DNA of 64,000 nt from Novacetimonas hansenii JCM 7643 (GTDB lineage: Bacteria; Pseudomonadota; Alphaproteobacteria; Acetobacterales; Acetobacteraceae): the NCBI RefSeq assembly GCF_000964405.1, contig NZ_BANE01000096.1, positions 1 through 64,000 of the forward strand, in the 5' to 3' direction. The number at the start of each line of letters is the position of its first letter. Positions within the stretch are counted from its first letter, which is position 1. The translations under genes and the position numbers were made by a program. Under the pieces are notes generated by a model. It made no database searches, was not told the DNA's origin, and saw only the letters and a program-made list of their open reading frames with translations. Positions 13,012 through 60,553 of the stretch are shown here, one piece after another.

Positions 13012-13322
13012 GCATCCCGAAAAAACTCCCCTCCCTTCCCTCTACGCAGCCCTCCTCTGCCGAGGCAGAGGCATTTATTGGCGGCGCTCCCAACAAGGAA
13101 ATTTATCCATGGGAGCATCAGGACGTGCGTTCTGACCTGCTGGTCAGCATGAGCACGCGTGTGCCGGAAAAACTGATGCTGCAGATGGAGTGGCTCCTGA
13201 GTAAATCAGCAGGACGGCGGCTGCATGCCCGGCAGTACAAGCAAACGTTCGTGATTGCGGCGGTGGAGGCCTACGTGCACAAGGAATTGACCAAGCGCGG
13301 CGTCCCCTCCGACCGGCAGTAA
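13008..13322 (+). CDS. ParA partner, probable centromere-binding protein
   Basis: A 104-aa protein overlapping parA by ATGA. The N-terminus is disordered and Pro/Ser-rich (KKLPSLPSTQPSSAEAEAF), followed by YPWEHQDVRSDLLVSMSTRV and a helical basic end (QMEWLLSKSAGRRLHARQYK, then VIAAVEAYVHKELTKRG). Size, order and basic helical C-terminus fit the small DNA-binding partner of type Ib ParA systems. No classic ParB motif is present. Its DNA site has not been located. Confidence 0.7.
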   Translation: MSIPKKLPSLPSTQPSSAEAEAFIGGAPNKEIYPWEHQDVRSDLLVSMSTRVPEKLMLQMEWLLSKSAGRRLHARQYKQTFVIAAVEAYVHKELTKRGVPSDRQ

Positions 13323-20917: not shown

Positions 20918-22371
20918 GGCGTTCCTCCCGTTTCACGCACACTGACGCGCCCGCGTCGTGGCGCGTAAACACCCGGCCGCCCCTCCGCCCAACCGGGGCG
21001 CACACCGGCCATCGTCGCCCGGTCAACATAACTCATCCCGCGCTCCAGCTGGACGGAACACGTCCACGATGCCGTTGGCATGATCGTATGCTCCACCGCC
21101 GGCATGTAGCCACGCAGCGTGGTCGCCCCGAATGCGACCTCTAGTTCCTGCCCACAGGCCAGATCCTCGCGCCCCATGCATGTCAGCGAGCCGCTTTCAA
21201 ACACCACATTGTCGCGGTTCAGCATCTTGAGATCGGTCGCCCGTTTCGTGATCCAGTCGTCAATCAACTGCGGTGCCTGCTGCTGCAGGTCCGCTGGCAT
21301 CATCGACGGCGCACACGCAAACCCGGTTGGCAAGAGATAACTCGACGTGCTCATCAGGCGCAGCCCGAGTATTTCCGGGCGGTTGTTGGCGTAGGACATG
21401 TCGGACTGGCTGTCGATATAGGCGATCGTGGCAGCAAACTGCCCATCGAGGGAGGCGGCCCCGGGAGGAACCCAGAAATAGTTGGCCGCCCCGTCGTCGC
21501 TGCGCCCTACCTCGCAACTGCTCACCGTGCGGTCCGAAATGCTGACCAGGCCCGGGTCTGCCGCGCCGTCCATGATCAGTTTCCCGTTCAGATCCCGGAA
21601 AGGTACCGGCCTGAACACCAGTGACGGCCCCGCCTCCGTCGTACGGACGAACATTTCATTCCACGGCGCGTCGCGCGCGGCGGCCAGCAGGTCCGCAACC
21701 GATCCCTGGAAGGTCATGGTGTTGAACGGGCTGAACGACCCCTCCGCGACGGTAATGTCGGAGGTCAGGAAGGGCTTGATCGCGCCAGTTGAAAACGCGG
21801 CCATCTGGTTGATCTTGGGATTGATGATCTTCGTCACGACCTCACGCACGAAATCGCCCACCCCTTCGATCACCGGGGAAATGCCGAACTGCGCCTGCAG
21901 GGGAAACTGATCCAGATACTGCTCCCCCTTGGTATTGAGGAGCGGATAGAGGATCTGGTTGGTTTCCAGCAGCCGCCCGCAATCCTTCCCCTCAATCACC
22001 ACCGTCTGCATGGGCGCCCCCTCCCCCTGCATGGCGCGGGGCCGGCGCACGCGGCGCACGAACCCGCGCATCAGCAGAGGCAGCTTCTGGCCCTGATATT
22101 TCCATGGCTTCCGGCTGGCACGGATCTCGATCAGGTCCATGGGCGCCACATAGGCATAGATGGAATCCGCCAGATCGGGAGGGATACGATCGGAGAACGA
22201 TACGGAAAACACGTTTCCCACCAGGCTACGCACGGAGGTCGCCATGCGCACGCTCCCGCCGTCCCCCAGGTATGGCGTCAGGTCGTATGCCTGAATGACA
22301 CGCCCTGGCGTTCCCCCCGCCGTCACCTTGTAGAGCATGACCGAAACGCTGAACGCGTGCAGGTCCACCAT
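20914..22371 (-). CDS. Baseplate hub, gpD/gp27-like
   Basis: A 485-aa protein between the tape measure and the spike, the usual hub slot. It shows the gpD-like order: DLTPYLGDGGSVRMATSVRS and SFSDRIPPDLADSIYAYVAP near the N-terminus, VVIEGKDCGRLLETNQI, FRPVPFRDLNGKLI in the centre, and LRGYMPAVEHTIMPTASWTC near the end. This protein holds the spike trimer and the tape measure end. The start overlaps the tape-measure stop by one base. Confidence 0.75.
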   Translation of the reverse strand: MVDLHAFSVSVMLYKVTAGGTPGRVIQAYDLTPYLGDGGSVRMATSVRSLVGNVFSVSFSDRIPPDLADSIYAYVAPMDLIEIRASRKPWKYQGQKLPLLMRGFVRRVRRPRAMQGEGAPMQTVVIEGKDCGRLLETNQILYPLLNTKGEQYLDQFPLQAQFGISPVIEGVGDFVREVVTKIINPKINQMAAFSTGAIKPFLTSDITVAEGSFSPFNTMTFQGSVADLLAAARDAPWNEMFVRTTEAGPSLVFRPVPFRDLNGKLIMDGAADPGLVSISDRTVSSCEVGRSDDGAANYFWVPPGAASLDGQFAATIAYIDSQSDMSYANNRPEILGLRLMSTSSYLLPTGFACAPSMMPADLQQQAPQLIDDWITKRATDLKMLNRDNVVFESGSLTCMGREDLACGQELEVAFGATTLRGYMPAVEHTIMPTASWTCSVQLERGMSYVDRATMAGVRPGWAEGRPGVYAPRRGRVSVRETGGTP

Positions 22372-25286
22372 CAGTAGACCCCCTGCCGCCGGGGCTGTCC
22401 GTACGCACTGGCCTCGTGCGACGGCATCCCTGCGGGCGTAGGGGAGACTGGAGGACCGCTCGCGAGGGAGAACATGTTGAGCGGCACATCCTGCGTAGCC
22501 CCGTTGGGATATAGCAGAGTAACAGATCCCCTGACGTGGTGGGTGGTATCGCCCGATCTGCCACCACCAACACTCCCCTGCCCGGGCTGCCCTGAGGAGC
22601 GCATCGCCTTTGGCATCGCCGGATCCGCAGGACGCAGATCCCGCGGCAGGTTGTTCAGGACGTCTGCGTACCCTCCGCGCGCGCCTTCAATGCCGTATCC
22701 TTCATATCCATGACCAAACGAACGTGAGGCAGCCCCTATGTCTGCGTAAGGCCCCAAGGATTGCAGTTGATTTAACTGGGCTCGATATTTCGTATTCAGT
22801 TCGCGGTGGATAAAATCTAACTGCTGCTCCTCAGTAGAATGGCGCAGGTCTACGCCCTCGGCAACTGCAAACGCACGCACACGGCTGGGGTCTGTCCACT
22901 GGCCCAATCCATATCCAGAGCCACCGACCTCCGCACGGTTTGCCTGCAGACCAGATTCCTGCATCAGTCCTCCGACGAGCACAGATGCCCCAGCATGGGT
23001 CAAATGATCCCGCCGCTCGAAATACGTCATCATCTGACGTGCCTTAGCAATTTGCTCCGGGTTGTTCCGAAATGCCTGGATATTCTGTTGCTGCCGATAA
23101 CTCTGGTATCCCCCCACCACGCCTGGAACAACGGCCCCCAACCCAACCCCCGCCGTCACCGCAGCGCCAGCCCCCACTGCGGCGCCTGCAGCGGCCGCGC
23201 CACCCTCGACGGCTTTGGCTCCGGCACCAGCAGCGCGGGCCGCACCGAACATGCCCCGGAAACCAGACGTCAGGACTTTTCTTGCAATCCCAGGCCCAAG
23301 GATCCCGGCGGCGCCCGCCGTCATCCAGCCCGCCACGGACGTAAGACTTTCGCCAGTTGTTCCGTCTCCCAGATGCTCGGCAATCGTCTGCACGGGTCCC
23401 TGCAGTTTGCCGATTTCCTCACGCAACTGGGTAATCGGCCCCACCAGTGTACTCGCCGCATTGGTCAGGACATTGGAAGCATCAGCACCGGAATCCGCGA
23501 CACGACGCCCCATGGTATTTTCCAGACCGGAGTTGGCAAACGCACGCACCTCCGCAGCACGCAAGGCTTCAGGGTTATTCGTCCCGGCATCCCTGAGGGC
23601 GGTGCGGTCTGCCGTGCTCAGGTCTGTACGGGCCATCAGCCGCTGACGGATCGCCCCAAGGTCCGCGTGGCTGTCCATGGTCTGCATGATATCGTTCAGG
23701 CCGCTCATATTGAGCGTACTTGCGTCAACGCCGATTTTACGAAGATATCCGTCCACGCCCCCGTTCGCAGCCTGAGATGTCTGGGCACTCCTCCAGTACC
23801 GTTCGAATTGCTGGTAATGTGCGGGGCTCATGCCCATGTAATTGCCCCCACCGACGAACCTGTCCTCATCGGGGCGTCCACGATACATCTGGCTGATCGT
23901 GCCCATGATGTCGTCGAGCACCATGGAGCCATCCGGCGCGCGCGCGAACATGCCCTGCGACAAAAGATACTGGGACTGGTAGACACTGCGCGATCCGTGC
24001 CGCGACATCGACATCAGCGACATCACCTGCCCCGCCATCCCTGCCCCGCCGCCGTGGGAAATGGCGGCATTCGCTGTGTTGATCAGGTTCTCCCCGTTCT
24101 CACCACGCACCGCCGGATCGCCGCTGGCGTTCATGGCGGTCATCAGATGTGCGAAATCACCCAGTCCACGTTCCTGCCCCTGCCGGTTCGCGTTCTCCGA
24201 CCAGCGCAGCATGGACTGCATGACGTTTTCCATCTGGCCGTTCATGTGGCCGTCCTGGACCGCGTCCGCCAGCATCAGCGCGAACCTGCGCGGGTCCTCC
24301 CCCGCGAAGCTTGCCCGGGCGAAACCCTGCACCATGGTGGAGGGGGCAACGCCATACCCGCGGGCGACATTCCCCGCCATCTCGACATTGGCCAACGCCG
24401 CACCGGACCGGCTTTCGTTCGCAATCCTGACCCACTCCTCGGTCAGGGACTGCCCCTCCGTCTGCAGGACATGCAGCGACGACGACACGTTGCGCACGTT
24501 ATGCAACAGTTCCGCGAACCCGGTGCTGGTGTCTCCCATGCGCCGCATCAGGCTGTCATTCATGACCTGTTCGCGCTCGGCCTGCTGGACATGCGACGTG
24601 ATGGACCGCAGGCCGCCGCCAATGCCCGCCGCCCCCAGCATCGCGCCGACAACGGGGCCGCCCCGGAAACGGGACAGGGCAGCGAGTTTGGGATCGACCC
24701 CGCCTCCGGCCCCTCCCGCGCCTCTTGATGCTCCCCCTGCTGCGCCGCCCGCCCCGCCAGCGCCGCCAGCATTGATGACGGTCGGTTCGGGCGCTGGCCC
24801 GGATCCAGACCGGACACGGTTTTCGGCCTCTCCCTCCTCCCGGTCGTTTTCCTTTTCCTCGGACGTCTCGGCAGGACCACTTCCGCCGGTTGGCGCGCGA
24901 CGGGGAACAGGGGTCAGGTCGGGATCAAAACGCGTTCCCTCCAGAACACGCCCCAGCACATTGTCGATATAGGCCCGCTGCTGCGCGGGATCGGGCACCT
25001 GCCGGGCTGCGCCGGCAGGAAAGTCGAGCGGTCCCGTGAACGCGCCCTCCGCGACGCCCTGCTGGACCCGCTGGCTGGTCTGCCCCTGTTTCAGGCGCAG
25101 GACATCTTCCCACTGCTTCTGGATCCGGGTGAGGTCCGCCTGCAACTCCTTCAGTTCCGGGTGGCTGAAATCGACATCGGACAGCTTCTGCGCCTGCTGC
25201 CCGGCCCGGCTCAGGGCGGCCGCGATCTGGTCGATTTCACGGACGGACTGCTGGACGTCCGCCTCAATGGGGATCTTGACGCTCAC
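22371..25286 (-). CDS. Tape measure protein with C-terminal tail lysozyme
   Basis: A 971-aa protein. Residues 1-100 are a coiled coil (EADVQQSVREIDQIAAALSR, ELKELQADLTRIQKQWEDVL); 150-230 are Gly/Ala-rich; the central part is helical with GAAGILGPGIARK and AAAGAAVGAGAAVTAGVGLG as membrane-like stretches near 690-720. Residues about 745-880 carry a phage lysozyme_2 type domain (HAGASVLVGGLMQESGLQ, GSGYGLGQWTDPSRVRAF), with the Glu in QESG as likely acid. The domain would cut peptidoglycan when DNA is injected. It sets tail length; this is a medium-long tail. Confidence 0.88.
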   Translation of the reverse strand: MSVKIPIEADVQQSVREIDQIAAALSRAGQQAQKLSDVDFSHPELKELQADLTRIQKQWEDVLRLKQGQTSQRVQQGVAEGAFTGPLDFPAGAARQVPDPAQQRAYIDNVLGRVLEGTRFDPDLTPVPRRAPTGGSGPAETSEEKENDREEGEAENRVRSGSGPAPEPTVINAGGAGGAGGAAGGASRGAGGAGGGVDPKLAALSRFRGGPVVGAMLGAAGIGGGLRSITSHVQQAEREQVMNDSLMRRMGDTSTGFAELLHNVRNVSSSLHVLQTEGQSLTEEWVRIANESRSGAALANVEMAGNVARGYGVAPSTMVQGFARASFAGEDPRRFALMLADAVQDGHMNGQMENVMQSMLRWSENANRQGQERGLGDFAHLMTAMNASGDPAVRGENGENLINTANAAISHGGGAGMAGQVMSLMSMSRHGSRSVYQSQYLLSQGMFARAPDGSMVLDDIMGTISQMYRGRPDEDRFVGGGNYMGMSPAHYQQFERYWRSAQTSQAANGGVDGYLRKIGVDASTLNMSGLNDIMQTMDSHADLGAIRQRLMARTDLSTADRTALRDAGTNNPEALRAAEVRAFANSGLENTMGRRVADSGADASNVLTNAASTLVGPITQLREEIGKLQGPVQTIAEHLGDGTTGESLTSVAGWMTAGAAGILGPGIARKVLTSGFRGMFGAARAAGAGAKAVEGGAAAAGAAVGAGAAVTAGVGLGAVVPGVVGGYQSYRQQQNIQAFRNNPEQIAKARQMMTYFERRDHLTHAGASVLVGGLMQESGLQANRAEVGGSGYGLGQWTDPSRVRAFAVAEGVDLRHSTEEQQLDFIHRELNTKYRAQLNQLQSLGPYADIGAASRSFGHGYEGYGIEGARGGYADVLNNLPRDLRPADPAMPKAMRSSGQPGQGSVGGGRSGDTTHHVRGSVTLLYPNGATQDVPLNMFSLASGPPVSPTPAGMPSHEASAYGQPRRQGVY

Positions 25287-26338: not shown

Positions 26339-28129
26339 TCAGCTGCTGGTCGTGCCGCCGGAGGCGCTACCGGTGGACGAGACGTTGACGGTTACCGTGC
26401 CCGTGTAGGGGCGCAGGGCATTGTTGGTTTTGATGAAATTCAGCGGGATAACCGGCTGCGAATTGAACGTGATCTCAATGGTGTCGCCACTGGCAACCGC
26501 AGTAAGGGCATCCCATGCCGGGGAACTGGAATCGCCGACGATCACCCCGGGACCAAGCGGACGCGGCGTCGCGCAATAGTTCAGGGCCGTTTCGGCATCG
26601 GACAGGCAGCCGTTCATCGTGACAGGAGAAACGCCCGTTCCCTGCGCGGCATCCGACCCCAGGCGCGCCTCCACGGCGCTCCTGACCTGCTGGTTGGTGA
26701 AATCGGCCGCAGCCCCGGTGCTGACCTCGACCCGGTCGTAATAATTGTCGTTCAACCAGGAGGTAATCGCCCGCACCACAATCGTCGTGCCGCTGCGTCC
26801 CTGCGCAATGGGCGTGATCCCGGCCGGGATCAGCACGTCGGTATCCGTCGGGATGTTCACCGCGACCTCCGGCCCGATGACGTCCAGCGCGACGTTCGTC
26901 ATAGTCTGTCCCGGCGAAAGGCCGGCAAATCCCGATGCGATCAGCGCCGCGGTCATATAGGGCGGATAGAGCGTCTCGTTGCCGTTCGCGTCGTAGCCGT
27001 AGAAACCGGGCCATGCGATGGACACGCGATCGCTGTTGAGCTGCACGCCGAGTGCCGCCGCATCCGACAGGGACATCCCCACATCCGGCCCGACCCACGC
27101 CCGCCGCTCCCGCTGTGCGGTCTTGGACATGTACTGCACATGCGCATCCACGGCGGCCCATACCGCCGGGTTCGGCGACAGGATCGCCAGCCAGTTCACG
27201 TCCGAGGACTGCAGCATCGTCAGGGCATTCGTCCAGTCCGTCACCAGTGGCGCAGGCACCGTGACCGGCGCGGGCGACTGCCATCCGGCGGGGGCCGCAG
27301 GTCCTGTGGCCGTGGTCGCGCGCGTCGCGGTGAAAATACCGCCGCCTGCGGTGCTGTTGAGGAAATCGATCTGTGCCTGCAGGTTGGCCGTGACAGCGTA
27401 TGGCGTGGATGTCAGCGCCTCCGCCGTGACAGGATCGAGAGAGTTGAGCGCCGTCTGGTTGACCGCTGTCGCGACGATCGTCGCCTCAAACCCGGAGACG
27501 GTGTTGATGGCATCCACCAACTGCGCGATGGACTGATACTGGTTCAGGTCCAGTACGGTGGTAGTGGTGCCGACGGCGAGCGTCACGCTTTCGGACGCCA
27601 CGGTGATCGTAGCACCCGTTCCCGCCCCCGTGTAGGCGACCCCAAACGCACCCCGGGCAATATTGTCCTGCGTGATGGCCTGCTGCCCGGCATAGCCCAC
27701 GCTGATCTCGCTGCCCTGCACGGTCCCGGCATAAACCGCGATCTGAGCGGTATTGGCGACCGTCCCATACTGGTCCGTGACCAGATTGATCGCGTCGTTC
27801 CCGGCGGTGTCCTTCAGGGTCAGCGTCCCGGCAGGAGCCGATCCCACGTTGACCGCATAGATGGTCGAGGGCGCGTCCACCTGGTCGGAGACGGAAAAAC
27901 ATTTCTGGACCGCCGTCAGCAGTTCTCCGCCCACAAGGACGTCCGCTGCCGCCGCCGGCGTCGCGAACGGCCCGAGCAGCGTGTTCGGCTTTCCACCAGT
28001 GGAAATCCCCATCACGCATAGGATATTGCCTGTCCCGGCCGAAACCGGGTTCATCGCCGTGTCGGAGGTGGAGGAGAAAACGCCCGGCGTGTATGTCGCC
28101 GATCCGTTGATCAGGGTGCTGTCCGCCAT
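26339..28129 (-). CDS. Tail sheath protein
   Basis: A 596-aa contractile sheath. N-terminus ATYTPGVFSSTSDTAMNPVS, then VMGISTGGKPNTLLGPFATP and GGELLTAVQKCF form the usual sheath head; a large variable insertion (about 120-250) follows; the conserved C-terminal part has ALGVQLNSDRVSIAWPGFYG, TSWLNDNYYDRVEVSTGA and NFIKTNNALRPYTGTVTVNV. It establishes this as a myovirus. It overlaps no neighbour; two bases separate it from the upstream small gene. Confidence 0.9.
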   Translation of the reverse strand: MADSTLINGSATYTPGVFSSTSDTAMNPVSAGTGNILCVMGISTGGKPNTLLGPFATPAAAADVLVGGELLTAVQKCFSVSDQVDAPSTIYAVNVGSAPAGTLTLKDTAGNDAINLVTDQYGTVANTAQIAVYAGTVQGSEISVGYAGQQAITQDNIARGAFGVAYTGAGTGATITVASESVTLAVGTTTTVLDLNQYQSIAQLVDAINTVSGFEATIVATAVNQTALNSLDPVTAEALTSTPYAVTANLQAQIDFLNSTAGGGIFTATRATTATGPAAPAGWQSPAPVTVPAPLVTDWTNALTMLQSSDVNWLAILSPNPAVWAAVDAHVQYMSKTAQRERRAWVGPDVGMSLSDAAALGVQLNSDRVSIAWPGFYGYDANGNETLYPPYMTAALIASGFAGLSPGQTMTNVALDVIGPEVAVNIPTDTDVLIPAGITPIAQGRSGTTIVVRAITSWLNDNYYDRVEVSTGAAADFTNQQVRSAVEARLGSDAAQGTGVSPVTMNGCLSDAETALNYCATPRPLGPGVIVGDSSSPAWDALTAVASGDTIEITFNSQPVIPLNFIKTNNALRPYTGTVTVNVSSTGSASGGTTSS

Positions 28130-32330: not shown

Positions 32331-33824
32331 TCAGCTATTGGCGTGCGGGCGCCAGACGTCGTTGTTCGACAGGATGTTCTTGAACACCGCGATCTGCTTG
32401 CGCTTGGACAGGCGCAGGTATCCGAACAGCATCTGGGCCCACGGGATCACCGCCTGGTTGGTCGGATACAGCGGGAACTTGATCATCGGTAGCAGCTGAC
32501 GCCAGACCACCGCGCTGTTTCCGGGCCGCATCGGCAGCAAGAATGCCTTGGACGTGCCCGGGATATCCTGGTTCAGGTCCGTCCAGACTGTCGTGGCTCC
32601 GGCGCAGGGGATACGGCAGACCAGACGGAAATCGCTGCCCTGCCCCGGCACGGACCCGGCAACCACGCCCGGACCGTTCTGGCGGGAACGATAGATCGCA
32701 TAACCGGTCTCCTGGGCACCTGTGCTGCGCTTGATCGTCAGGGTCGCCCCCATGCCAGACGCGATCGCTACCTGGGCGGAGATGACGCCGGTGGACTGCC
32801 CGGATGCATTCACGCCCGCCACCAGATAGTAGTAGTTCCCCGCCTGCGCCGCCGTAAACTGGGACGAAACATCCGCGTCCGCCAGCGCAACGGGCGTGAC
32901 TGCCGACGGTGCGATGGAGGCCTGCGCCGCCGCAATCGCCGGATAGATCACCTCGAACGGCTGCTGCATCTCGGAATCAGGGATGAACACGTCCGGGTCG
33001 TTGGAGATATTGCCGAACGAGGTCCGGATACCGTTGACGGGCGCACCCAGCTTCAGGCCACCATCCGAAACACCCGTCAGCGGCACGCGATAGGCCGGGT
33101 CGAGGTTCGTGTCGAAATCCGCCTGCGTGTTGTAGGAGCAGAACAGGTTGGTCGCGCGACCGAAGTTTCCGTACCCGGCCACCTTCGCTGCTGCCTTGTT
33201 GACCAGGTTGACGCTGGCCAGCTGCTGCCCGCGGCAGTCAAGGATATTGCCGGGATCGACCTGCCCCGCCGCTACGCCATAACGGATCTGCGCCTCAATG
33301 CCGTCGAACTCGGTCGGCACCACGGCGGAATCACCGCTGAACGACAGGTATTCAGCGTCGGTCAGCAACTGCAGCGCGCCGTTGTTCTGCTCAACGGCCT
33401 GTGAATCGGAAATCGTGTTCTGCAGGGTCTGCACGAACGACACCTGACGCTGGGTCATCAGGAATTTGACCATGCCCACGCGCCGGTTGTAATCACCAAC
33501 AGAGTTGGGAATGTTCCCCATTTCCGAATTGGTGCTGCCGCCGAGGAAGCCGCCGACGCTATCCTGTTCGGTCCATTCGTCAACGGTTGCCCCGGCCCCC
33601 TGCTTGAGGAGCATGTTGAACAGGCGGAAATCCTCGTTCGACTGGATGGTGGACTGCATCGTCATATCCAGCGACTGGATACGCAGCGCGGCACCCCCGG
33701 TCAGCTGCGAGACGTCGGTGCCGTATCCCGCCTCAAGGGCTTTGCGAAGCCCTTCAAGGTCTTTCACCGACATCATGCCGGAACGGGCATCACTCGGCTG
33801 GATCAGCGCAGGGTTGAAATTCAT
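32331..33824 (-). CDS. Major capsid protein
   Basis: A 497-aa protein that follows the scaffold and protease genes. HK97-type features include TVDEWTEQDSVGGFLGGSTN, VGMVKFLMTQRQVSFVQTLQ and VFKNILSNNDVW at the end. Residues about 300-420 (PVALADADVSSQFTAAQAGN, ATLTIKRSTGAQETGYAIYR, SDFRLVCRIPCAGATTVW) look like a fibronectin/Ig-like insertion displayed on the shell. Residues 27-48 share RKALEAGYGTD and GGAALR with the protease C-terminal region. The N-terminal segment is probably removed on maturation. Confidence 0.8.
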   Translation of the reverse strand: MNFNPALIQPSDARSGMMSVKDLEGLRKALEAGYGTDVSQLTGGAALRIQSLDMTMQSTIQSNEDFRLFNMLLKQGAGATVDEWTEQDSVGGFLGGSTNSEMGNIPNSVGDYNRRVGMVKFLMTQRQVSFVQTLQNTISDSQAVEQNNGALQLLTDAEYLSFSGDSAVVPTEFDGIEAQIRYGVAAGQVDPGNILDCRGQQLASVNLVNKAAAKVAGYGNFGRATNLFCSYNTQADFDTNLDPAYRVPLTGVSDGGLKLGAPVNGIRTSFGNISNDPDVFIPDSEMQQPFEVIYPAIAAAQASIAPSAVTPVALADADVSSQFTAAQAGNYYYLVAGVNASGQSTGVISAQVAIASGMGATLTIKRSTGAQETGYAIYRSRQNGPGVVAGSVPGQGSDFRLVCRIPCAGATTVWTDLNQDIPGTSKAFLLPMRPGNSAVVWRQLLPMIKFPLYPTNQAVIPWAQMLFGYLRLSKRKQIAVFKNILSNNDVWRPHANS

Positions 33825-33857: not shown

Positions 33858-34595
33858 TCAGACGGACTGAATCGCCTTGACGAGGGGTTCGGGGATCTCG
33901 GCGCCCTGGTTCAGGCACCCTTCGATCATCGACACGTCCACGGCCGAGATGAGGCCCTTCTTCATGGCCTGCATCGACGCCTGCATGATTTCGGCCCGCG
34001 ACGCGCCCTGCGGCTGGGCCGGGGCACCGGCAGGCTGGCTCTTTTCCATGATGCTCAGGACCGAAGCGCGCCCGCGGCCCTGCGCGCCGAACGTATCGAG
34101 ACGATCGGACAGGGACTTGATGACCGTGTCCTGATCCTTCACCAGCCGCAGTAGCGACTGCATGCCAGACAGGGCCTTGACCATCTCGCCGGCATTCTCT
34201 GCGCGAACGGCTGCCAGTTCGCTGGCCAGCGCCGTGTTCTGCCCCTTGAGGAAACGCATGCCCGTGACAAGGGCCGCACCGTCAACAACTTCGGCTGTCT
34301 CGCCGCCTTCCAGCGTCACGGTCAGCGACTTGCCGAACATCTCGGCGTCATCGTCATCCTCTTCCCCGCCTTCTCCGGCCTTGCGGCGCGCTTCCTCGGC
34401 CGCCCTGGCCTCCGCCTCTTTTTTCTTGCGGGCCTTTTCAAGTTCCTCCTCGGTCAGGGGCTTTCCCCCTTCCTTCGGATCGTCCTTGCCCTTATCCGTG
34501 GTGCGCGACTTGCGCATTTCCTCGATCCCGCTCAGATCATTGAGCAGCGCGTCAAAGCCCCCCGCCGTGGGCGCCGGGTTGGTTTTTTCAGTCAT
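33858..34595 (-). CDS. Scaffold protein
   Basis: A 245-aa protein from the ATG at 34595; the longer frame is inside the protease gene. It is highly charged with a long coiled coil (LTEEELEKARKKKEAEARAA, EEARRKAGEGGEEDDDDAEM) and helical C-terminus (SRAEIMQASMQAMKKGLISA). Scaffold proteins of this sort guide capsid assembly and are then digested. It lies between the protease and the major capsid gene and overlaps the protease stop by eight bases. Confidence 0.72.
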   Translation of the reverse strand: MTEKTNPAPTAGGFDALLNDLSGIEEMRKSRTTDKGKDDPKEGGKPLTEEELEKARKKKEAEARAAEEARRKAGEGGEEDDDDAEMFGKSLTVTLEGGETAEVVDGAALVTGMRFLKGQNTALASELAAVRAENAGEMVKALSGMQSLLRLVKDQDTVIKSLSDRLDTFGAQGRGRASVLSIMEKSQPAGAPAQPQGASRAEIMQASMQAMKKGLISAVDVSMIEGCLNQGAEIPEPLVKAIQSV

Positions 34596-35451
34596 GTCTT
34601 GTCCTTTGTTCTCGGCCCCTCTGGAGGTCGCCCAGGAACCGTTCGACCAGCTCCGAGGCCCGGTCCGGATCCACGTCAAAAGCCTGCGCGACGTGCGCGA
34701 CGAGCGCATCGACGGACGGCTTCACCCGACCGGCGCGGATGTCCCCCGCCAGCCTGTCCCTGAAATCCCAGTAATTCTGGAGGTGCGGATCCGGCATTTC
34801 GGAGCGCAGCGCTGCCCCTCCGCTCAGTTCCGCCATGTCCGTGCCGTAGCCAGCTTCCAGCGCCTTACGCATGCAAAACGCCCCGGCGGCCATGCTCTTG
34901 GCCAGCGCCCCGAACGGCACGACCGCCACGGTGGGCACGTGCAGGTTCACCGGCGTCCCGCTCATCCCGATATTGGTCCAGCGCACCCGATCGATGACCG
35001 GGCGCTGCCGCCCGGTTTTCGGGTCCGCGATCTTGCTCCGGTGGCAGTCTCCTCCCACCGACGGGAACCAGTGCTTCGGCGGACGCTGGCGCGTCAGGGA
35101 ATCCCAGAACATGTTCGCATGCTCGACGGTCGGCCCCTCCCCGCCATAGATTTCGGCCTTCACGAACGTCTTTTTGCCATCTGCCCGTACGTCCACAGGC
35201 TTGCCGATCTCGAACAGATGGTGTGACGGCTGCCCGGCCACCGGCCCCATCTGGGTGCGATGATCGAGGTCTATGTTCCCGTATTTCAGGAAGTAGGGCG
35301 CGCTTTCCTGAAGCGCTTTCGACAGGACAACTTCGCCCTGATGATCCACGCTCTCGTCCGACGCCTGCATGTAGACAAAGCGCCGGCCACCCTCTTCACG
35401 CGGCTGGGCCTTGAACATGCTGTCGATGCAGAAAAACTCTTGATCGCTCAT
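34588..35451 (-). CDS. Prohead protease
   Basis: A 287-aa protein with the serine protease pattern of HK97/U35 prohead proteases: KYGNIDLDHRTQMGP (His near 64), and KHWFPSVGGDCHRS (Ser near 131). Residues 195-216 carry RKALEAGYGTD, MAELS and GGAALR, also seen near the N-terminus of the major capsid protein. The C-terminal part is helical (LVAHVAQAFDVDPDRASELV). It should cleave scaffold and capsid. The gene is first in the capsid unit, with the late box 22 nt before its ATG. Confidence 0.78.
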   Translation of the reverse strand: MSDQEFFCIDSMFKAQPREEGGRRFVYMQASDESVDHQGEVVLSKALQESAPYFLKYGNIDLDHRTQMGPVAGQPSHHLFEIGKPVDVRADGKKTFVKAEIYGGEGPTVEHANMFWDSLTRQRPPKHWFPSVGGDCHRSKIADPKTGRQRPVIDRVRWTNIGMSGTPVNLHVPTVAVVPFGALAKSMAAGAFCMRKALEAGYGTDMAELSGGAALRSEMPDPHLQNYWDFRDRLAGDIRAGRVKPSVDALVAHVAQAFDVDPDRASELVERFLGDLQRGREQRTRHD

Positions 35452-41228: not shown

Positions 41229-42185
41229 TCACAAAAACGCTGAACCAGCGTGGTTCCTGAACAGATCCGCATCCCGCACATACGCGTTCAGCGTCTCCAG
41301 ACTTTTGTGCCGACTGACGTCGCGCATCTTGAAGATCGTCGCCCCGGCGCGCGCCGCGCTGGTCAGAAAGCCTGACCGCAGGGAGTGCCCCGAAAACTGC
41401 GCCGGGTCTTCGTTGATCAGCAGGCACCGTTCCTTCACGATCTCCGCCACGGCCGCCGGGCGCAGGGGTTGCGCGCCGACCTTGCCGCCCCGGCGCACGC
41501 GGCGGAACAGGGAGCCGCTTTCGATCCCGGCCGCCGCCATCCACGCCTCGATGGCCGGGCCGGGGCGCAGGCGGTTGCCGCGCGGGATCGCGATGGTCTG
41601 GCCCTGCCCCTCCTGGTCGGTCTTCGACTTGCGGATCAGCACCCGGTATCCGTCATCCGTGCGCGACAGATCCTCCACGCGCAGCGCGACCAGCTCGCTG
41701 CGCCGGAACGCCCCGGCAAAGCCCAGCGCGAGGATCGCCCGGTCGCGCAGCCCCTTCAGGCTGTCATCGCAGGTGTCGATCATGCGCTCCACGATATCCG
41801 CCGTGGCGGCGGCCTTGCGGTCCGGCGCGCCGCCCATCTCCCGCCGGATGCCTTTCAATGTCTTCGACACCAGTTCGGACCGGGTCGGCGTTTCCTCGTC
41901 CGCCAGCCGGTGCAGGTAACGGATCGCCGCCACCCGGCGCCCGATCGTGGACGGCCGCAGGCCCTGCTCCGCTGAATCGGCGATGAAATTGGCCACCGTC
42001 TCCGGCGCGGCGGGCATGGGGCTGACCCCGCGCGCCGTGCACCAGGTGGTGAAGGTGTTGATGTCGGTCATGTAGGCGCGGCGCGTGCTCGGGGCCTCGG
42101 CCTCCAGGATGAAGCGGCGGGCGCGCGCGGACGGCACGATGGCGATGGCGGTGTCGGGCTGGGTCGGAACAATAATCTGGTTCAT
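41229..42185 (-). CDS. Tyrosine recombinase/integrase
   Basis: A 318-aa recombinase. The N-terminal SAM-like core-binding domain (APSTRRAYMTDINTFTTWCT) precedes the catalytic part: Arg in GAFRRSELVAL (near 162), Lys in IRKSKTDQEG (near 187), H-x-x-R in SGHSLRSG (267-270), His in SRHKSLETL (near 293) and Tyr in NAYVRD (302). All catalytic residues are present. On a plasmid element it could resolve dimers or move the neighbouring island. No att-like direct repeats were found next to it. Confidence 0.88.
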   Translation of the reverse strand: MNQIIVPTQPDTAIAIVPSARARRFILEAEAPSTRRAYMTDINTFTTWCTARGVSPMPAAPETVANFIADSAEQGLRPSTIGRRVAAIRYLHRLADEETPTRSELVSKTLKGIRREMGGAPDRKAAATADIVERMIDTCDDSLKGLRDRAILALGFAGAFRRSELVALRVEDLSRTDDGYRVLIRKSKTDQEGQGQTIAIPRGNRLRPGPAIEAWMAAAGIESGSLFRRVRRGGKVGAQPLRPAAVAEIVKERCLLINEDPAQFSGHSLRSGFLTSAARAGATIFKMRDVSRHKSLETLNAYVRDADLFRNHAGSAFL

Positions 42186-47925: not shown

Positions 47926-48041
47926 AACCGTGCCCCCAGTCTTGATACGCGGCGACGGAGATGGTCCGTGATACCACGATGATCGTAATAGGTAGTGGTC
48001 GTCGCCGGTCTGGTCAACATACCAGACAGCCTGCCAGCCCC

Positions 48042-51593: not shown

Positions 51594-51617
51594 CGTCGGG
51601 AAGTCCTGTTATCGGGC

Positions 51618-53297
51618 CTATTCGACCGTGTAGACAGTGGCCAGGGATTTCCTGACCGGCTCGGGATCATCGGTTTCTAGAGGCGTATCCGCGTCACCAT
51701 CGGGAGGAGGATCGGACGGACGGCCGGGATCGCCCGGGCGCTGATCATCGTCGGTACCTGCGCCTGCGAACCGCTGTTTGTTCAGTTCCATCCATGGCTG
51801 GATCAGGCTGGGATTGAGCGGCGCGTTGCCCAGCACGGGGTCAGGGAAGGGCGCGTCACCGCGGCGGCCACGCAGTTCGTTGACCGTCATGACAGACTCG
51901 TCTTCCTTCGCCTTGGCCCCGGCATCCTCGCTATCCAGCCCGACGAAGCGGAAACACCAGTCATCGTTGAAGGCCGACACGATGAAATCGCTGAACGTAG
52001 CCTCATAGAACGCAAGCAGTGGCAGCAGCCCCGTGTCCTGCCCGTTCTCCAGCTTGGCCTCCGTATCGCTGCCAGACAGGGAGGACTTTGACGCGGAGAA
52101 ACTCTCGAAATTGATCTCGTCCGGTGCCATGCCGTAGATCGCGCATGCGATGGATGTCAGGAACGTCATCCATTTGGCGAAATGCATCTCGTTGAAGTCG
52201 GTGTCGAACTTCTCGAACGCGACCTTGCTCTGCGCGTCCTTCGCCACCATGACAGGAAGGGCCCAGGTGTTGGCCGTCCCCTTGACCATGGCGTTCCAGT
52301 ATCGCTTGAACGCCGCGATATCTTCCTGCCCGTAATCGCCGATCAGCTGCAGGATGCCCTTGGGGATGGAATTTTCGTCGAACCCGGCATTGTTGTAGGA
52401 CATGGCGTTCAGGATGCCCGTGATGACCTTGATCATCACCTCCGGCTCCGCCTCACCGTATCCACCCGTGTCAACGTCGGTGCGCGGATTGCGAACCTCG
52501 TAGATCAACTGATCAATCGTGTAGGTGGTCCCGATGCGCCCATCGATGACCTGCAGGGCATAAATCGGGTCATCCCCCTCGTAATGCTGCTCGGAACACA
52601 GCCGGATCGTGGCACCGTCCACGGCGTAGAACCCGTCAAGCCCCAGTTCAGCGTTCCGACGCATCTCCGTCTCGATGGGGCATGAATCCAGCGTCAGGGA
52701 ATCCCGCACCGACTTGGCCATGAACTGGCGGAAATTGTCGCGGTGCATCAGCTTGCGCCGGCGTGGATTGAACTCCCAGCCGCAGTTGAGGAAAAACCGC
52801 GCCAGATGCGCGGCGGCATCGGCCTCCGTCCCCTTGAGCAGATGGTTGCGATCCTTGTGCCGGATTTCAAACCCGAGGCCGCCATCCTCGCTGATCTGGG
52901 CAAACCTACTGACCTGGCGCACACGCCGGCGCACGATGGCGCTGAGGATCGGCGTCTGCGCCACGATCGCGCGCAGTCCGGTGAAATCCAGCGCGGACGG
53001 CCTCTCAAAATACCGCGCCTGGGAAAATATCTTCTGGGGGTCCAGCCGCACTGACCGCATGCGGCCGCCCGTGTCATTGCCGTCGCCCAGCCGGATGATC
53101 TGCCGCGGGGTTGCCTTGTAGAACTCAGCGTCCATCAACCCATTGTTGATGTAGTCAATCACAGGGCGCAGGTTTTCAGGCGGGATCAGTTGGGACGCCA
53201 GCGGGCGATACGCCTTGTGCATCTCCACGGACGCGTCGAAACGTTCGTCAGGCGGGGTATCGAGGCCGAGGGCCAACTGTCGCACGGTTTCGTTCAT
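51618..53297 (-). CDS. Portal protein
   Basis: A 559-aa protein directly after the large terminase. Portal features include LDFTGLRAIVAQTPILSAIV, RRRVRQVSRFAQISEDG, DEINFESFSASKSSLSGSDT and LPLLAFYEATFSDFIVSAFN; the end is disordered and acidic. It forms the twelve-part ring through which DNA enters the head. Its late box overlaps the terminase stop and begins 23 nt before the ATG. Confidence 0.85.
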   Translation of the reverse strand: MNETVRQLALGLDTPPDERFDASVEMHKAYRPLASQLIPPENLRPVIDYINNGLMDAEFYKATPRQIIRLGDGNDTGGRMRSVRLDPQKIFSQARYFERPSALDFTGLRAIVAQTPILSAIVRRRVRQVSRFAQISEDGGLGFEIRHKDRNHLLKGTEADAAAHLARFFLNCGWEFNPRRRKLMHRDNFRQFMAKSVRDSLTLDSCPIETEMRRNAELGLDGFYAVDGATIRLCSEQHYEGDDPIYALQVIDGRIGTTYTIDQLIYEVRNPRTDVDTGGYGEAEPEVMIKVITGILNAMSYNNAGFDENSIPKGILQLIGDYGQEDIAAFKRYWNAMVKGTANTWALPVMVAKDAQSKVAFEKFDTDFNEMHFAKWMTFLTSIACAIYGMAPDEINFESFSASKSSLSGSDTEAKLENGQDTGLLPLLAFYEATFSDFIVSAFNDDWCFRFVGLDSEDAGAKAKEDESVMTVNELRGRRGDAPFPDPVLGNAPLNPSLIQPWMELNKQRFAGAGTDDDQRPGDPGRPSDPPPDGDADTPLETDDPEPVRKSLATVYTVE

Positions 53298-53306: not shown

Positions 53307-53320
53307 TGTCGCATCACGAT
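53307..53320 (-). promoter_or_regulatory. Late-box copy (ATCGTGATGCGACA)
   Basis: On the minus strand ATCGTGATGCGACA starts 23 nt before the portal ATG and contains the TGA stop of the large terminase. This is the most diverged copy. Confidence 0.45.
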
Positions 53321-55395
53321 GTCACGTCGTCCGCAGCGGGCTCGTAGAACACGCAACCCGGGTCCAGCGCACCAACGCGCAGATCCCGTTCCGAACAGGT
53401 GCCCCCTCCGAAATACCGGCATTTCCCGCAGGCACCCTCCGGGGCGCTTCCCATCATTTCTGCCAGCCGCGACGTCAGGTTCTGGGCTGCGGACGGAGAC
53501 GGCGACTGGGCGGTACCCACGCCTGCCAATCCAGCATCAGGAAGGATGAACGTGGAATTGCCCTGCACACGTGCCCATGCCGCATCACATAGCATCAGTG
53601 CAAAACTGAAATGCGGGTCCAGCCCGATCTTCTGGACAGTGCGCCGTGTCTTCCCTGTTTCCGGATCTGCAACCGTGACCAGGGCAGTACGGGAAAAATG
53701 CAGGAAAACCCAGTCGTAGAGGATCGCGATGCGCCGCTTCCTGCCGTTCTCGATGACTTCCTGCTCCAGCCCGTTGGGGTCGGGAAACAGGCAGATACCG
53801 TCGCGAATGCGGTACAAGGACGTCTGCATGCATTTGTATCGGTCCAAGCGAACTGTGTAGCGCGTCCGTTCTTCCTCGCTGGTCATACGCTCCGACCGCG
53901 ACAGGCTGTCCCCCCAGTGCATGGATTCATCGCCCATGTCCTGATAGCCGGTGCACAGGAACACGCGGCCGGGGAAGCGGTTGGCGAATTTGCGCGCATC
54001 GTTGAAATTCGGCAGCTGTTCGACGACACAGACCTCAACCCCGTACTGCCGCATCAGATCAGCACACCGGTCAAACGGGGACAGGTCGAACACAGCCTCC
54101 ACATGGATCACCGCCTGCCGGTTGTCAGGCAGCCGCTTCTTGATGATGACGGCGTTAAAGCCCCCCATCTGGTCGATCCCCATGTAGGTCCCGCTGCCCG
54201 TTTCCTCCCATGTCACGCCAGCGGCACGTCCGCGCTCCACGCCCGCCTGGCAGACCTCGTAGGAAACTGGGATCTGGTCTGGATCAACATAGGGGCGCGC
54301 CAGCGTGCGATTGAAGAAACTCTGTTTCTGCGCTCCTGTCGATGCAAACCCGAAATCGGTGAACATTTCCCGGGCGGTCATCCTCGGGCTGATCGTCCGG
54401 GGCAGCAGGAATGAGCGGATATCATTTCCAGCACCGGGATTCTGGGCAATATAGTCACCATATTGCGGGTCGGGGATGTAGCCCTGGCACTCCGGGCAGA
54501 CCCACACATAATCATCAACAGGCGGCGCGTGCTGGGCCGTTTCGCCGGGATATGGCGGGGCAGGGCGGACCTGACCCTTGTTGAAAACGATCGAGCGCGA
54601 CGGGAATATGCCGTTGGGATCGGACAGGTCCGACAGCGCCCCGCAACCGGGACATCGCGTGTGCCACACCTCCTGCGTGCCACGCTTGTACCAGTTGTTG
54701 ATATCCTCGTCCGGCATGTTCGCCGTGGACAGCAGCATCTTGAAACGCACGTCGCTGTCACCCATTCGGGCTGCGACCTTGTCAATTTCCTCCAGGCTCA
54801 TACCCTGGACTTCGTCCAGACTGACGATATCCATGGGCCGGGATTCCGTGGAGACCTTGCCCGACGTCCACAGGAACATCAGGAGCGACCCCGCGATCTC
54901 GCGCGTCAGGACATTGCCTTCACCGATCTTCTGCCGGCCGCCCTTGCCGTCATAGCGATAGATCAGTTCCGATAGCAGCTGTGGCGACGACCGGATGATC
55001 GGCATGAACCGTCGTTCGGACTTGAACGCCGCCGTGTTCTGGTCGGGCAGGAACATCCCGATATTCACCGGCGACCATTTCTTGGCCATGTAAAGGTCGG
55101 CCAGCACTTCCCACACGGTAAGGCCCAGCTGGGTCGCCTTCTGGATCACGAGAGTCTTGCCATAGGCCTGCTGGCGGGTGGTCGGGATTGCATCGTAGAT
55201 CGGGCGCAGGGCCGGCCGGTTGTCCAGGCGGAAAGGGCGTCCGTCAATTTTCAGCCCCTTTGCCGCCAGGTCCTCGCACCACTCCAGAAACCCCATGGCC
55301 TCCGGGATCGAGCCCGTCCCGCCATAGCCCAGCCGTGCCGCAGTTTCCTCCAGCATCATGAGCTGGCAGTCGAGAGAACGCTGCAGCAGGTTCAT
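53314..55395 (-). CDS. Terminase large subunit, GpA-like
   Basis: A 693-aa packaging motor/nuclease. ATPase region: VIQKATQLGLTVWEVLADLY (Walker A variant near 86-93) and DIVSLDEVQGMSLEEIDKVA (Walker B, DE at 194-195). A zinc pair follows (CPGCGALSD, CPECQGYIPD), then the nuclease part (GTYMGIDQMGGFNAVIIKKR, VEQLPNFNDARKFANRFPGR). An unusual C-terminal addition, CGKCRYFGGGTCSERDLRVG and ALDPGCVFYEP, is a further Cys cluster. It works with the small subunit encoded upstream. Overlaps that gene by ATGA. Confidence 0.9.
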   Translation of the reverse strand: MNLLQRSLDCQLMMLEETAARLGYGGTGSIPEAMGFLEWCEDLAAKGLKIDGRPFRLDNRPALRPIYDAIPTTRQQAYGKTLVIQKATQLGLTVWEVLADLYMAKKWSPVNIGMFLPDQNTAAFKSERRFMPIIRSSPQLLSELIYRYDGKGGRQKIGEGNVLTREIAGSLLMFLWTSGKVSTESRPMDIVSLDEVQGMSLEEIDKVAARMGDSDVRFKMLLSTANMPDEDINNWYKRGTQEVWHTRCPGCGALSDLSDPNGIFPSRSIVFNKGQVRPAPPYPGETAQHAPPVDDYVWVCPECQGYIPDPQYGDYIAQNPGAGNDIRSFLLPRTISPRMTAREMFTDFGFASTGAQKQSFFNRTLARPYVDPDQIPVSYEVCQAGVERGRAAGVTWEETGSGTYMGIDQMGGFNAVIIKKRLPDNRQAVIHVEAVFDLSPFDRCADLMRQYGVEVCVVEQLPNFNDARKFANRFPGRVFLCTGYQDMGDESMHWGDSLSRSERMTSEEERTRYTVRLDRYKCMQTSLYRIRDGICLFPDPNGLEQEVIENGRKRRIAILYDWVFLHFSRTALVTVADPETGKTRRTVQKIGLDPHFSFALMLCDAAWARVQGNSTFILPDAGLAGVGTAQSPSPSAAQNLTSRLAEMMGSAPEGACGKCRYFGGGTCSERDLRVGALDPGCVFYEPAADDVTS

Positions 55396-57343: not shown

Positions 57344-57467
57344 GGATGCCTCCCCTATGGTCAACCATGGTTATCTAACCAGATACCCACGTAAAACCAA
57401 GAGAAAGAACCGGAAAATTGTTGATTGTCAGGCCAAAAGCGGCAGGCGTGATGACAATAATGTCTGG

Positions 57468-57476
57468 TTATCCACA
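57468..57476 (+). promoter_or_regulatory. DnaA box (TTATCCACA)
   Basis: An exact consensus DnaA box, 20 bases before the AT-rich segment. A weaker one, TTTTCCACA, lies at 57659-57667 next to the iterons. Confidence 0.8.
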
Positions 57477-57565
57477 GACCATTATCGTTAAGAGGTTATT
57501 TAAATTTGTTAAAACAGTTACGGGTCTGAAAACCGGTTTCGAATCAGCATATTGCGCGTTTTTCA

Positions 57566-57648
57566 GTCCATAAAACCACGACATACGGTCCGTGATGTTA
57601 CGACGCTTCAGTCCGCGATATTACGACGCCCGGTCCCGGATATACGAC
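57566..57648 (+). repeat. Iterons 1-4 of the replication origin
   Basis: Four 16-17 base direct repeats: 57566 (GTCCATAAAACCACGAC), 57588 (GTCCGTGATGTTACGAC), 57611 (GTCCGCGATATTACGAC) and 57633 (GTCCCGGATATACGAC, one base short). Common edges are GTCC and ACGAC. Spacing is about 22 bases, two helical turns, as in initiator-bound iteron arrays. Confidence 0.85.
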
Positions 57649-57808
57649 AAAAATCTGATTTTCCACAGGAAATGGCAGAAATCCCGCCTCTGGTGACGCC
57701 GCCAGAGGCTATTCCACGCATGAGCGGCATCAGGGCCGTTCATTGACTGCCATCAGGACAGCCAGGTTTTGATAAAAACCCTTTATAAACAAGTGGATGG
57801 TCTGTTGG

Positions 57809-57825
57809 GTCCGTAAAACCACGAT
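57809..57825 (+). repeat. Iteron 5
   Basis: GTCCGTAAAACCACGAT, eight bases beyond the rep stop. It links the origin cluster to the gene. Confidence 0.75.
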
Positions 57826-57832
57826 GGATGGG

Positions 57833-58669
57833 TCAAACCCTGTCCCTATGCGAAAATACGACCTGCACACGTCGCGGCGGTACGCGCACGATCCCGGGCG
57901 GTGCCTCCAGGTTCATCTGGTAATGGATCAGGCTGTCGCGGCGGCATATCTCGACCAGTTCCGCCTTCAGCTTCTTTAATTCCATCTGCGTGCCAATTTT
58001 CTCTGCCAGGCGCGGAAGCGAGATCATCCACGTCTGCTGGTTGCCCAAATGCTTGCGTACCAGTTCATACAGCCGACGTTCCATTGCCATGGTCAGTTCG
58101 AAATATTTGGAATCCATCGCGAGAACGCGGCGCTCCTTGACGATGGCGCGGTACATCCAGTCGCTGAGGGTAACTTCAATGGCCTCCATGACCCGGTTGC
58201 CGTCCTTGCGCATGCGCTTGACGATGCGCCACGCCTCGATCCAGCCAAAACCGCGCTCCTCCTCCTCTCCGGCCGACGCGATTGACGTGGTGATCGTCGT
58301 TGAGCGCAGGCGGAACAGCGCATCCTTCAGCTGCTCATAGGATTTTCCGGATGTCCCGCGGCCCGCCACGCGCAGAAAATCCACGGCCGCGAACTGAATG
58401 GTCCGGCCGGGCTCGATTCCACGCTCCAGCTGCTCGTTCATCAGGGACGTCACATAGATCAGAATGTCCTTGTCCCAGATGGTCGCGATGCCCCGTTCTC
58501 CGGGCGAGACGCGTATCATCACCCGCCCATCGTCATAAGTGATGGGCGTGTGACGGGGGCGCTTGGCCAATGAAAAGAAAGGGAATTCCATCAGGGCGCG
58601 GTCCCCGCGCAGGGTCTGCCCCATCATGGAATCAAGAAAAAGATCAACCTGCTGCGCCGCCACATCCAC
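57833..58669 (-). CDS. repA: Plasmid replication initiator, RPA family
   Basis: A 278-aa protein. The pattern FPFFSLAKRPRHTPITYDDG, IATIWDKDILIYVTSLMNEQ, AAVDFLRVAGRGTSGKSYEQ, DALFRLRSTTITTSI and WMYRAIVKERRVLAMDSKYF, RRLYELVRKHLGNQ matches RPA-type initiators of plasmids. The first GTG (58669) touches GGAGG, so GTG at 58663 is a likely start. It should bind the iterons on both sides of the gene. Two iterons in its promoter region (58698-58769) give autoregulation and copy control. Confidence 0.9.
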   Translation of the reverse strand: MDVAAQQVDLFLDSMMGQTLRGDRALMEFPFFSLAKRPRHTPITYDDGRVMIRVSPGERGIATIWDKDILIYVTSLMNEQLERGIEPGRTIQFAAVDFLRVAGRGTSGKSYEQLKDALFRLRSTTITTSIASAGEEEERGFGWIEAWRIVKRMRKDGNRVMEAIEVTLSDWMYRAIVKERRVLAMDSKYFELTMAMERRLYELVRKHLGNQQTWMISLPRLAEKIGTQMELKKLKAELVEICRRDSLIHYQMNLEAPPGIVRVPPRRVQVVFSHRDRV

Positions 58670-58697
58670 CTCCGGATCTGATGCCCGGACCGCTTAG

Positions 58698-58769
58698 GTC
58701 CCTGAAACCACGACAGCCTAACGTCGCGGATACCGAACGACAACAGATTTTGGTCCCCGAAACCACGAC
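58698..58769 (+). repeat. Iterons 6-7 upstream of rep
   Basis: GTCCCTGAAACCACGAC (58698-58714) and GTCCCCGAAACCACGAC (58753-58769), spaced 55 bases, lie in the rep promoter region. They match the origin iterons in edges and centre. Confidence 0.85.
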
Positions 58770-58788
58770 AGCAGGAGATCGGCAGGGG

Positions 58789-60044: not shown

Positions 60045-60553
60045 CACATCAGCCCCAGCTTGCGCTGGCGTGCCCAGAACATGCGCAGGAACCCGCTGCA
60101 CATCCGCATCTTCGCGGTGTCCCAGGCCCCATCCGCGCGCTGCGGAAACAGGAAATTCCCCGGTCCCTTGCTCATGTCGATCGGCACGTGCTTGTGACAG
60201 TAGAACCTGCCGGTGAACATGCCATCCCCGTCCACCTGCAGGCTGTCCAGTAGGGATTTCCAGGTCTCCGGATCGGCCTGCTCCGGCGCGCCGGGCCGGA
60301 ATGCACAGTTATCACATGGCTCCGCGCAGACCGGGTCCGCGATATACTGCGGGGGGAAAACCTCCCATATCGCCCGGCATGACCCGCAGAATCCGACCTC
60401 CTGTGGCAGTCCCAGTTCCCGCAGGCGCGCATTGGTCTGAACCGTCGTGGTTTCACGGACCCCGCATGACGGACATTCCGTCGGGCGCGGGACGGGCAGT
60501 CCCTCCGCTGTTCGGCTCTCCTGCAACTCGCGGCGACGCTTTGCCTCACCCAT
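60044..60553 (-). CDS. Cys-rich early protein (169 aa)
   Basis: A 169-aa protein starting MGEAKRRRELQES, with CPSCGVRE, CGSCRAIW and CAEPCDNCAFRPGAPEQ. The latter resembles Cys clusters of phage proteins linked to Gp37/Gp68. It overlaps that gene by eight bases. May cooperate with it. Confidence 0.55.
   Translation of the reverse strand: MGEAKRRRELQESRTAEGLPVPRPTECPSCGVRETTTVQTNARLRELGLPQEVGFCGSCRAIWEVFPPQYIADPVCAEPCDNCAFRPGAPEQADPETWKSLLDSLQVDGDGMFTGRFYCHKHVPIDMSKGPGNFLFPQRADGAWDTAKMRMCSGFLRMFWARQRKLGLM

Follow-up and report, generated by a model that had tools for sequence, protein, structure and literature searches.

Probable maintenance of a contractile-tailed phage of Novacetimonas hansenii as a circular plasmid with an RPA-type iteron replicon

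Background

Phage-plasmids are a recognised kind of element, and phages with RPA replicons have been reported before. One comparison is P1, which combines a contractile tail with a Cre-type recombinase, a plasmid initiator and ParA. A second is the 112-kb RHOApe of Rhodovastum atsumiense G2-11 (NZ_OW485606.1), whose record calls it a plasmid and which PLSDB lists as linear. The Rhodobacter phages RcRhea, RcCronus and RcSaxon are described as encoding an RPA-type RepA and a partition protein, and their authors propose that they form extrachromosomal prophages (PMC4882933). Among the ten typed phage-plasmid groups of PMC12977533, as they appear in its main text, the group described here is not named, and that text contains neither the word "alphaproteobacteria" nor the word "acetobacter". 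A search of the open-licence literature at listing level found no phage-plasmid of acetic acid bacteria.

Here we describe a stretch of 64,000 nucleotides (the window) from Novacetimonas hansenii JCM 7643, a member of the Acetobacteraceae, in which an initial annotation made from the letters alone had proposed an iteron replicon inside a myovirus genome. We conclude that the window very probably represents most of a temperate contractile-tailed phage of about 75.66 kb which persists in the lysogen as a circular plasmid of low copy number. The features on which this reading draws are collected in Table 1.

Results and discussion

The element closes as a circle

The window comprises bases 1-64000 of a 75,702-base contig; the host draft genome totals 3.71 Mb and is split into 467 contigs. 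In this draft assembly the first 44 bases of the contig recur exactly at its end, and the repeated sequence is present at those two places only in the whole host genome. The same element is recorded in IMG/VR as G397 (75,718 bases), with an alignment that covers the entire contig and a single 8-base difference: G397 has one unit fewer of a tandem TGGGTGCC repeat located at approximately 35621-35653 in the window. It is opened at another point and has its own 68-bp end overlap, and each assembly spans the junction of the other. This reciprocal bridging by two assemblies shows that the ends join to give a circle of about 75.66 kb, an extrachromosomal circular molecule at the level of assembly. 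G397 may derive from the same strain as the window, and we count it as a second assembly, not as a second isolate.

Exact end repeats are found in 7 of the 15 records that we examined (the window contig, G397, G398, G400, G403, G404 and G243C1). Circular ends alone are no proof of a plasmid, because G403 and G404, which carry integrase-family genes, also have end overlaps. Phage DNA that is circularly permuted or replicating could give the same circular assembly as a plasmid.

Table 1. Features of the phage element, in window coordinates
Feature	Position	Strand	Evidence or remark
Contig end overlap	1..44	+	exact; second copy at contig 75659-75702, beyond the window
parA, partition ATPase	12340..13011	+	AAA_31, MipZ, CbiA; phrog_164 ParA 2.3e-32
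104-aa ORF overlapping parA, candidate partition partner	13008..13322	+	neighbour matches in G400, G243C1
Tape measure protein	22371..25286	-	phrog_9570 3.9e-12
Tail sheath (contractile tail)	26339..28129	-	phrog_279 5.9e-40
Major capsid protein	32331..33824	-	phrog_752 3.5e-85; 48.8% to Dolphis
Capsid maturation protease homologue	34588..35451	-	44% to Dolphis gp8, so annotated; deleted in G398
Cre-type tyrosine recombinase, candidate dimer resolvase	41229..42185	-	Cre homology
Portal protein	51618..53297	-	PF04860 8.2e-11; all but start deleted in G398
Terminase large subunit	53314..55395	-	PF05876 1.1e-14
DnaA box TTATCCACA	57468..57476	+	exact; sole copy in window and on 75.7-kb contig
AT-rich stretch between DnaA box and iterons	57477..57565		64% AT vs 39.7% for contig; candidate unwinding element
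Iteron 1	57566..57582	+	exact
Iteron 2	57588..57604	+	exact
Iteron 3	57611..57627	+	exact
Iteron 4, 16-nt variant	57633..57648	+	22 bp from iteron 3
Iteron 5, ends ACGAT	57809..57825	+	just downstream of repA
repA, RPA-family initiator	57833..58663	-	276 aa from GTG 58663; 278 aa from GTG 58669
Iteron 6	58698..58714	+	exact; upstream of repA; likely repA operator
Iteron 7	58753..58769	+	exact; upstream of repA; likely repA operator
Perfect iteron outside cluster, inside an ORF	60444..60460	-	0 mismatches; kept in G398

Virion genes and their neighbours

Matches to PF05876, PF04860, phrog_752, phrog_279 and phrog_9570 place predicted genes for terminase, portal, capsid, tail sheath and tape measure on one molecule, as expected of a phage-plasmid and in agreement with the initial report of capsid, tail, portal and terminase on the same DNA. 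The reading frames of these genes, as well as those of the capsid protease and the baseplate region, are open, and all have counterparts in the isolated Pseudomonas phage Dolphis. The protease homologue has no match in NCBIfam. A large helicase (36108-40628) was considered as a homologue of P1 DarB, an identity that we rejected since tblastn returned 11 records, none of them from P1.

Several genes of other kinds are present on the element. A SocA/Panacea-type antitoxin gene (47482-47925) scores below the NCBIfam cut-off, and the same element encodes a DnaN beta clamp (6546-7676). In Caulobacter the SocB toxin targets DnaN, and by analogy a link between the antitoxin and the beta clamp of the phage is possible. 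The portal gene is adjoined by a gene for a zeta-toxin-like ATPase (50415-51593), which has matches in 4 of the 11 tabulated relatives other than G398; a search of plasmids with this protein returned nothing informative. A C5 DNA methylase gene (5173-6546) overlaps the gene for a PAPS-reductase-domain protein (4190-5347) that is weakly similar to the defence proteins SspD and BrxP. The phage also carries a pair consisting of an S24 peptidase, UmuD-like by position, and a UmuC-like polymerase (L003 12072-13726).

An iteron array with an adjoining AT-rich stretch

The direct repeats surrounding repA had been described as seven 17-base iterons flanking the initiator gene. The flanking arrangement holds, and the seven are not identical: five are exact 17-mers of the form GTCC-N8-ACGAC, and two are variants, namely iteron 5, which ends in ACGAT, and iteron 4, a 16-nt GTCC-N7-ACGAC. 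The first four (57566-57648) have start-to-start spacings of 22, 23 and 22 bp. One strand holds six GTCC-N8-ACGAY sites in a stretch of 1.3 kb, as against a largest cluster of two in 300 Markov-1 randomised contigs. When up to two mismatches are permitted, GTCCNNNAAACCACGAC is found seven times in the window compared with 0.41 expected, and a count of seven was reached in none of 100 shuffles; three of these seven matches fall outside the replicon. Six of the seven iterons were used to build a weight matrix, which was applied to the contig and to 100 randomised contigs. Above 12 bits it finds 13 sites in the contig (randomised mean 4.1, maximum 9), and it separates the iterons less sharply at the lower cut-off of 9 bits, with 45 sites (mean 26.6, maximum 40). 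A screen for 11-mer arrays flagged neither the iterons of the window nor those of G398; of the genomes that carry an initiator, G400 and RHOApe were picked up, in each case at the initiator gene.

The DnaA box and the AT-rich stretch of the initial annotation are both present. The single exact TTATCCACA is not significant alone: 18 of 100 shuffles also contain one, and we rejected it as a separate line of evidence. Together, helically phased direct repeats adjoining AT-rich DNA and a DnaA box have the organisation predicted for an iteron replicon, and the clustered iterons beside a PF10134 gene look like a plasmid-type initiator with its cognate origin, as a phage-plasmid would possess.

Iteron-like sites are also located beyond the replicon. 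In addition to the perfect copy at 60444-60460 there are weaker ones at 47964-47980 and 56296-56312, and all have counterparts in G398. These outlying sites could titrate RepA or be chance occurrences within coding DNA.

The RPA-family initiator

The assignment of the initiator to the RPA type is borne out by a match to PF10134 (7.3e-72; 242 bits against a cut-off of 27 bits). The protein also matches phrog_23447, a replication initiation protein, and more weakly Rep3_N (6.8e-6). No relative below E 0.48 was found in a sequence search of solved structures. An AlphaFold model based on four sequences is of modest quality (mean pLDDT 61, pTM 0.45). A structure search with this model retrieved RctB (E 1.2e-9) and the initiator pi in complex with iteron DNA (3e-4), with TM-scores of just 0.23-0.36, and a second alignment matched the WH1 domain of pPS10 RepA (Z 10.2, 116 residues aligned, 3.9 A) as well as RepE. 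The rmsd to most two-domain structures exceeds 11 A, which indicates that the domain arrangement is poorly modelled. The model nevertheless suggests that RepA has the twin winged-helix Rep fold of iteron initiators, like RctB, pi, pPS10 RepA and RepE.

A similar anatomy is seen at other RPA loci. RepA of G400 is 58% identical to that of the window, its gene has repeats of its own (TCGGTATTTCGCGAACCT and variants) on both sides, and a parA match adjoins. The viral contigs L138-L140 likewise carry RPA genes, each flanked on either side by repeats of other sequence, which are fewest in L140. Because the anatomy is the same at these loci, the window iterons are the expected partner of the window initiator. 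L138-L140 gave no match to the window terminase in a search run without a positive control.

The same host contains a second RPA replicon, on contig G000:C390 (L032-L034), with 36.7% identity to RepA of the window. Approximately 7.3 kb of this contig, with efflux and other genes, is common at >99% to plasmids of Acetobacter, Gluconobacter or Kozakia, which points to an acetic acid bacterium as the host. A near search of window 40001-64000 against the plasmid collection returned just two short matches.

A relative that has lost virion genes

G398 (68,276 bases) is a circle with a 68-base end overlap that aligns with the window element in 13 pieces, twelve of which are 90.8-99.8% identical and one, a short piece, 80.7%. 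Among other stretches it lacks window 34231-38403, with loss of the capsid protease gene and truncation of the large helicase, and window 51460-53087, with loss of nearly all of the portal gene. The terminase and capsid frames are still open. Judging from these deletions, an element of the G398 type should not make virions. In the replicon (57381-58900), only 3 of 1520 bases differ from the window; repA has one silent change, and the RepA proteins are identical. A replicon that is kept while portal and capsid protease are lost, on a molecule that is still a circle, favours plasmid replication, as seen here in one assembly.

The window element might itself have arisen by fusion of a plasmid with a prophage and have ceased to function as a phage. 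Both the RPA and the Cre-type genes have plasmid relatives, and phage-plasmids are described as capable of decay into plasmids (PMC10879196), of which G398 looks like an example. However, the capsid, protease, portal, terminase, sheath, tape measure and baseplate-region genes of the window are intact as reading frames and matched in Dolphis, and we consider such a fusion improbable.

A Cre-type recombinase and the question of integration

The tyrosine recombinase mentioned in the initial annotation is present, and it resembles Cre rather than a typical phage integrase. Among solved structures in the PDB the closest is Cre (2.2e-19 over residues 36-307), followed by XerD (1.1e-8); in NCBIfam the nearest models are XerD and XerC, with scores far below their cut-offs. 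The 15 matches listed from at least 5000 plasmid records are 46.0-52.5% identical and include a 4.6-kb plasmid, whereas the top match of 69 phage records is 33.5% identical. Across the 12 relatives tabulated, the recombinase is found in G398 alone (tblastn, E 1e-4). The 75.7-kb contig contains no whole tRNA gene. An att search of the 3.3 kb around the recombinase revealed no strong second match within the host genome, with 22 further weak ones at E <=1, the best at 0.0055. Lox-like sites were also sought, and several short inverted repeats were found, none distinctive. Given the homology to Cre, the closer plasmid relatives, the weakness of the second genome places and the lack of a tRNA gene, the recombinase more likely resolves dimers than integrates, and we rejected its identity as a typical phage integrase.

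These data bear on the alternative that the element is an ordinary integrating temperate phage, its recombinase an integrase and its circular contig an excised or replicating form. The recombinase does match the phage integrase family phrog_1, integrase-bearing relatives also assemble as circles, and one relative is itself integrated. In Rhodovarius crocodyli a 143.8-kb contig carries an integrase gene (approximately 1030-2052) beside a tRNA-Ser gene (851-940), and a 43-bp, 95% repeat lies about 86 kb from the latter, followed by about 57 kb of other genes that we read as chromosomal from the starts of their translations; on the other side just ~0.85 kb is visible. From this arrangement the Rhodovarius relative is judged to be integrated at tRNA-Ser. 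Linkage to chromosomal genes with att sites at both ends had been named at the outset as the pattern that would speak against a plasmid. It is seen in Rhodovarius, in a relative with another integrase and no RPA gene. In the window element the recombinase is closest to Cre among solved structures and, in the collections searched, to plasmid proteins; the 3.3 kb around it has only weak second places in the host genome, the contig has no tRNA gene, the recombinase is shared with G398 alone among the 12 relatives tabulated, and a complete iteron replicon and ParA are present. An integrating phage is therefore very unlikely as an explanation of the window.

ParA and a candidate partner

The initial annotation placed a ParA operon 45 kb from the replicon. 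The parA gene is indeed located there, at 45 kb on one arc of the circle and about 30 kb on the other, and is overlapped by an ORF of 104 aa. In G400, parA and repA adjoin. Against the NCBIfam model ParA_partition the protein scores 129 bits, under the cut-off of 180. The 104-aa ORF has no family in Pfam-type, phrog or NCBIfam profile searches; its matches adjoin the parA match in G400 (34%) and in G243C1 (28%). In G243C1, whose ParA match stands at 50%, a search for initiators of the RPA, TrfA and RepA_C families found none. Both ParB and parS were sought and neither was identified, with no candidate parS near parA.

Relatives and their lysogeny modules

A search with the capsid protein returned 603 phage records, of which the best is Dolphis (48.8%), with PHB04 (47.1%) and Aeromonas ST4 (45.8%) also matched, and two plasmid records, RHOApe being one. 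Of 397 genomes drawn from the family, 8 have a capsid match at E <=0.001: four are full-length at >50% (the window's own included), one is at 29%, one is a fragment and two are short and weak. Within the genus, the terminase is present in one of four genomes, the window's own.

The capsid led to 21 genomes or records, and 6 of these have a match to the RPA initiator family. Three are above the cut-off (G397, which is the window element, G398 and G400), and the three below it are the carriers of TrfA, an initiator found in 3 of 23 (G409, G410 and G412). RepA_C is found in 2 of 23, the Rhodovastum genome, at eight places that include RHOApe, and G416, where the count is per genome and does not imply a location on the phage contig. 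Integrase-family genes are present in 7 of the 12 records searched: G397 and G398, in which they are the Cre homologues, and G400, G403, G404, G406 and Rhodovarius. The last four gave no match to any of the three initiator families; many of the relatives' records are fragments, and such absences are weak. These relatives appear to live both as plasmids and integrated, and the phage group is not plasmid-only.

In a tree of the capsid proteins the TrfA carriers occupy one branch, the RPA carriers group together in just 58% of 200 bootstrap trees, and the integrase carriers need three changes; the number of module exchanges is not settled by the tree. On balance we favour an undescribed group of contractile-tailed temperate phages in which one virion set is combined with an exchanged maintenance module, either an RPA, TrfA or RepA_C replicon or integration. 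The window would be the RPA member, and G398 a member turning into a plasmid.

A model for maintenance

The plasmid is the most likely dormant form of the window element because of its plasmid-type origin and closed-circle assembly. Lysogeny as an autonomous plasmid, proposed from the start, gains further support from the bridged end overlaps, the retention of the replicon in G398, the lack of a tRNA gene on the contig and of a strong second site for the 3.3 kb around the recombinase, and the related plasmid RHOApe. We propose that RepA would bind the phased iterons at 57566-57648, that DnaA would load at the adjoining box and the AT-rich stretch open, and that host replication proteins would then start theta replication. 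Binding of RepA to the two iterons upstream of repA would limit its own synthesis. ParA and its small partner would segregate the copies, the Cre-type recombinase would resolve dimers, and upon induction the virion genes would package the same molecule. Low copy number and its control, as well as stable maintenance, are likewise proposed.

That RepA and the iterons instead form an origin for lytic growth is very unlikely: the element encodes its own beta clamp and so engages the replisome, and iteron initiators could serve either phase, but G398, in which lytic growth is implausible without portal and protease, keeps the replicon nearly unchanged, and maintenance as a plasmid is what ParA and a Cre-type recombinase would fit.

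Plasmid lysogeny of the window element would add a contractile-tailed phage-plasmid group in the Acetobacteraceae. With three plasmid initiator families or an integrase in one group, comparisons in which the virion stays the same could be used to ask how lysogeny switches between the plasmid and the integrated form. Being small, the RPA replicon could also be used as the origin of vectors for acetic acid bacteria.

Comparison with known systems

RHOApe shares related virion and terminase genes with the window element (capsid 54.9%), as well as plasmid form and an initiator of its own with flanking repeats. However, its initiator is RepA_C (PF04796) rather than RPA, its repeats are different, and it has no match to the recombinase or ParA of the window (tblastn, E 1e-4). 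Pseudomonas phage Dolphis, Bordetella phage vB_BbrM_PHB04 and their relatives are similar in the capsid (47-49%), Dolphis additionally in its head and tail genes and PHB04 in the large helicase (48.9%). In contrast, neither is among the 8 phage records with an RPA match, and the annotation of Dolphis includes an integrase and a primase/helicase. P1-type phage-plasmids have the same combination of contractile tail, Cre-type recombinase, plasmid initiator and ParA, although P1 is absent from the best 25 of 603 capsid matches and from the 11 helicase matches.

The Rhodobacter phages RcRhea, RcCronus and RcSaxon have an RPA-family RepA that is 32.8% identical to that of the window, but their genomes, at ~36 kb, are half the size, and none is among the best 25 of the 603 capsid matches. 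The initial annotation had considered RPA replicons uncommon on contractile-tailed phages. The replicon type is already known from these smaller phages, while its occurrence with a contractile virion, like the phage group and the host lineage, is apparently new.
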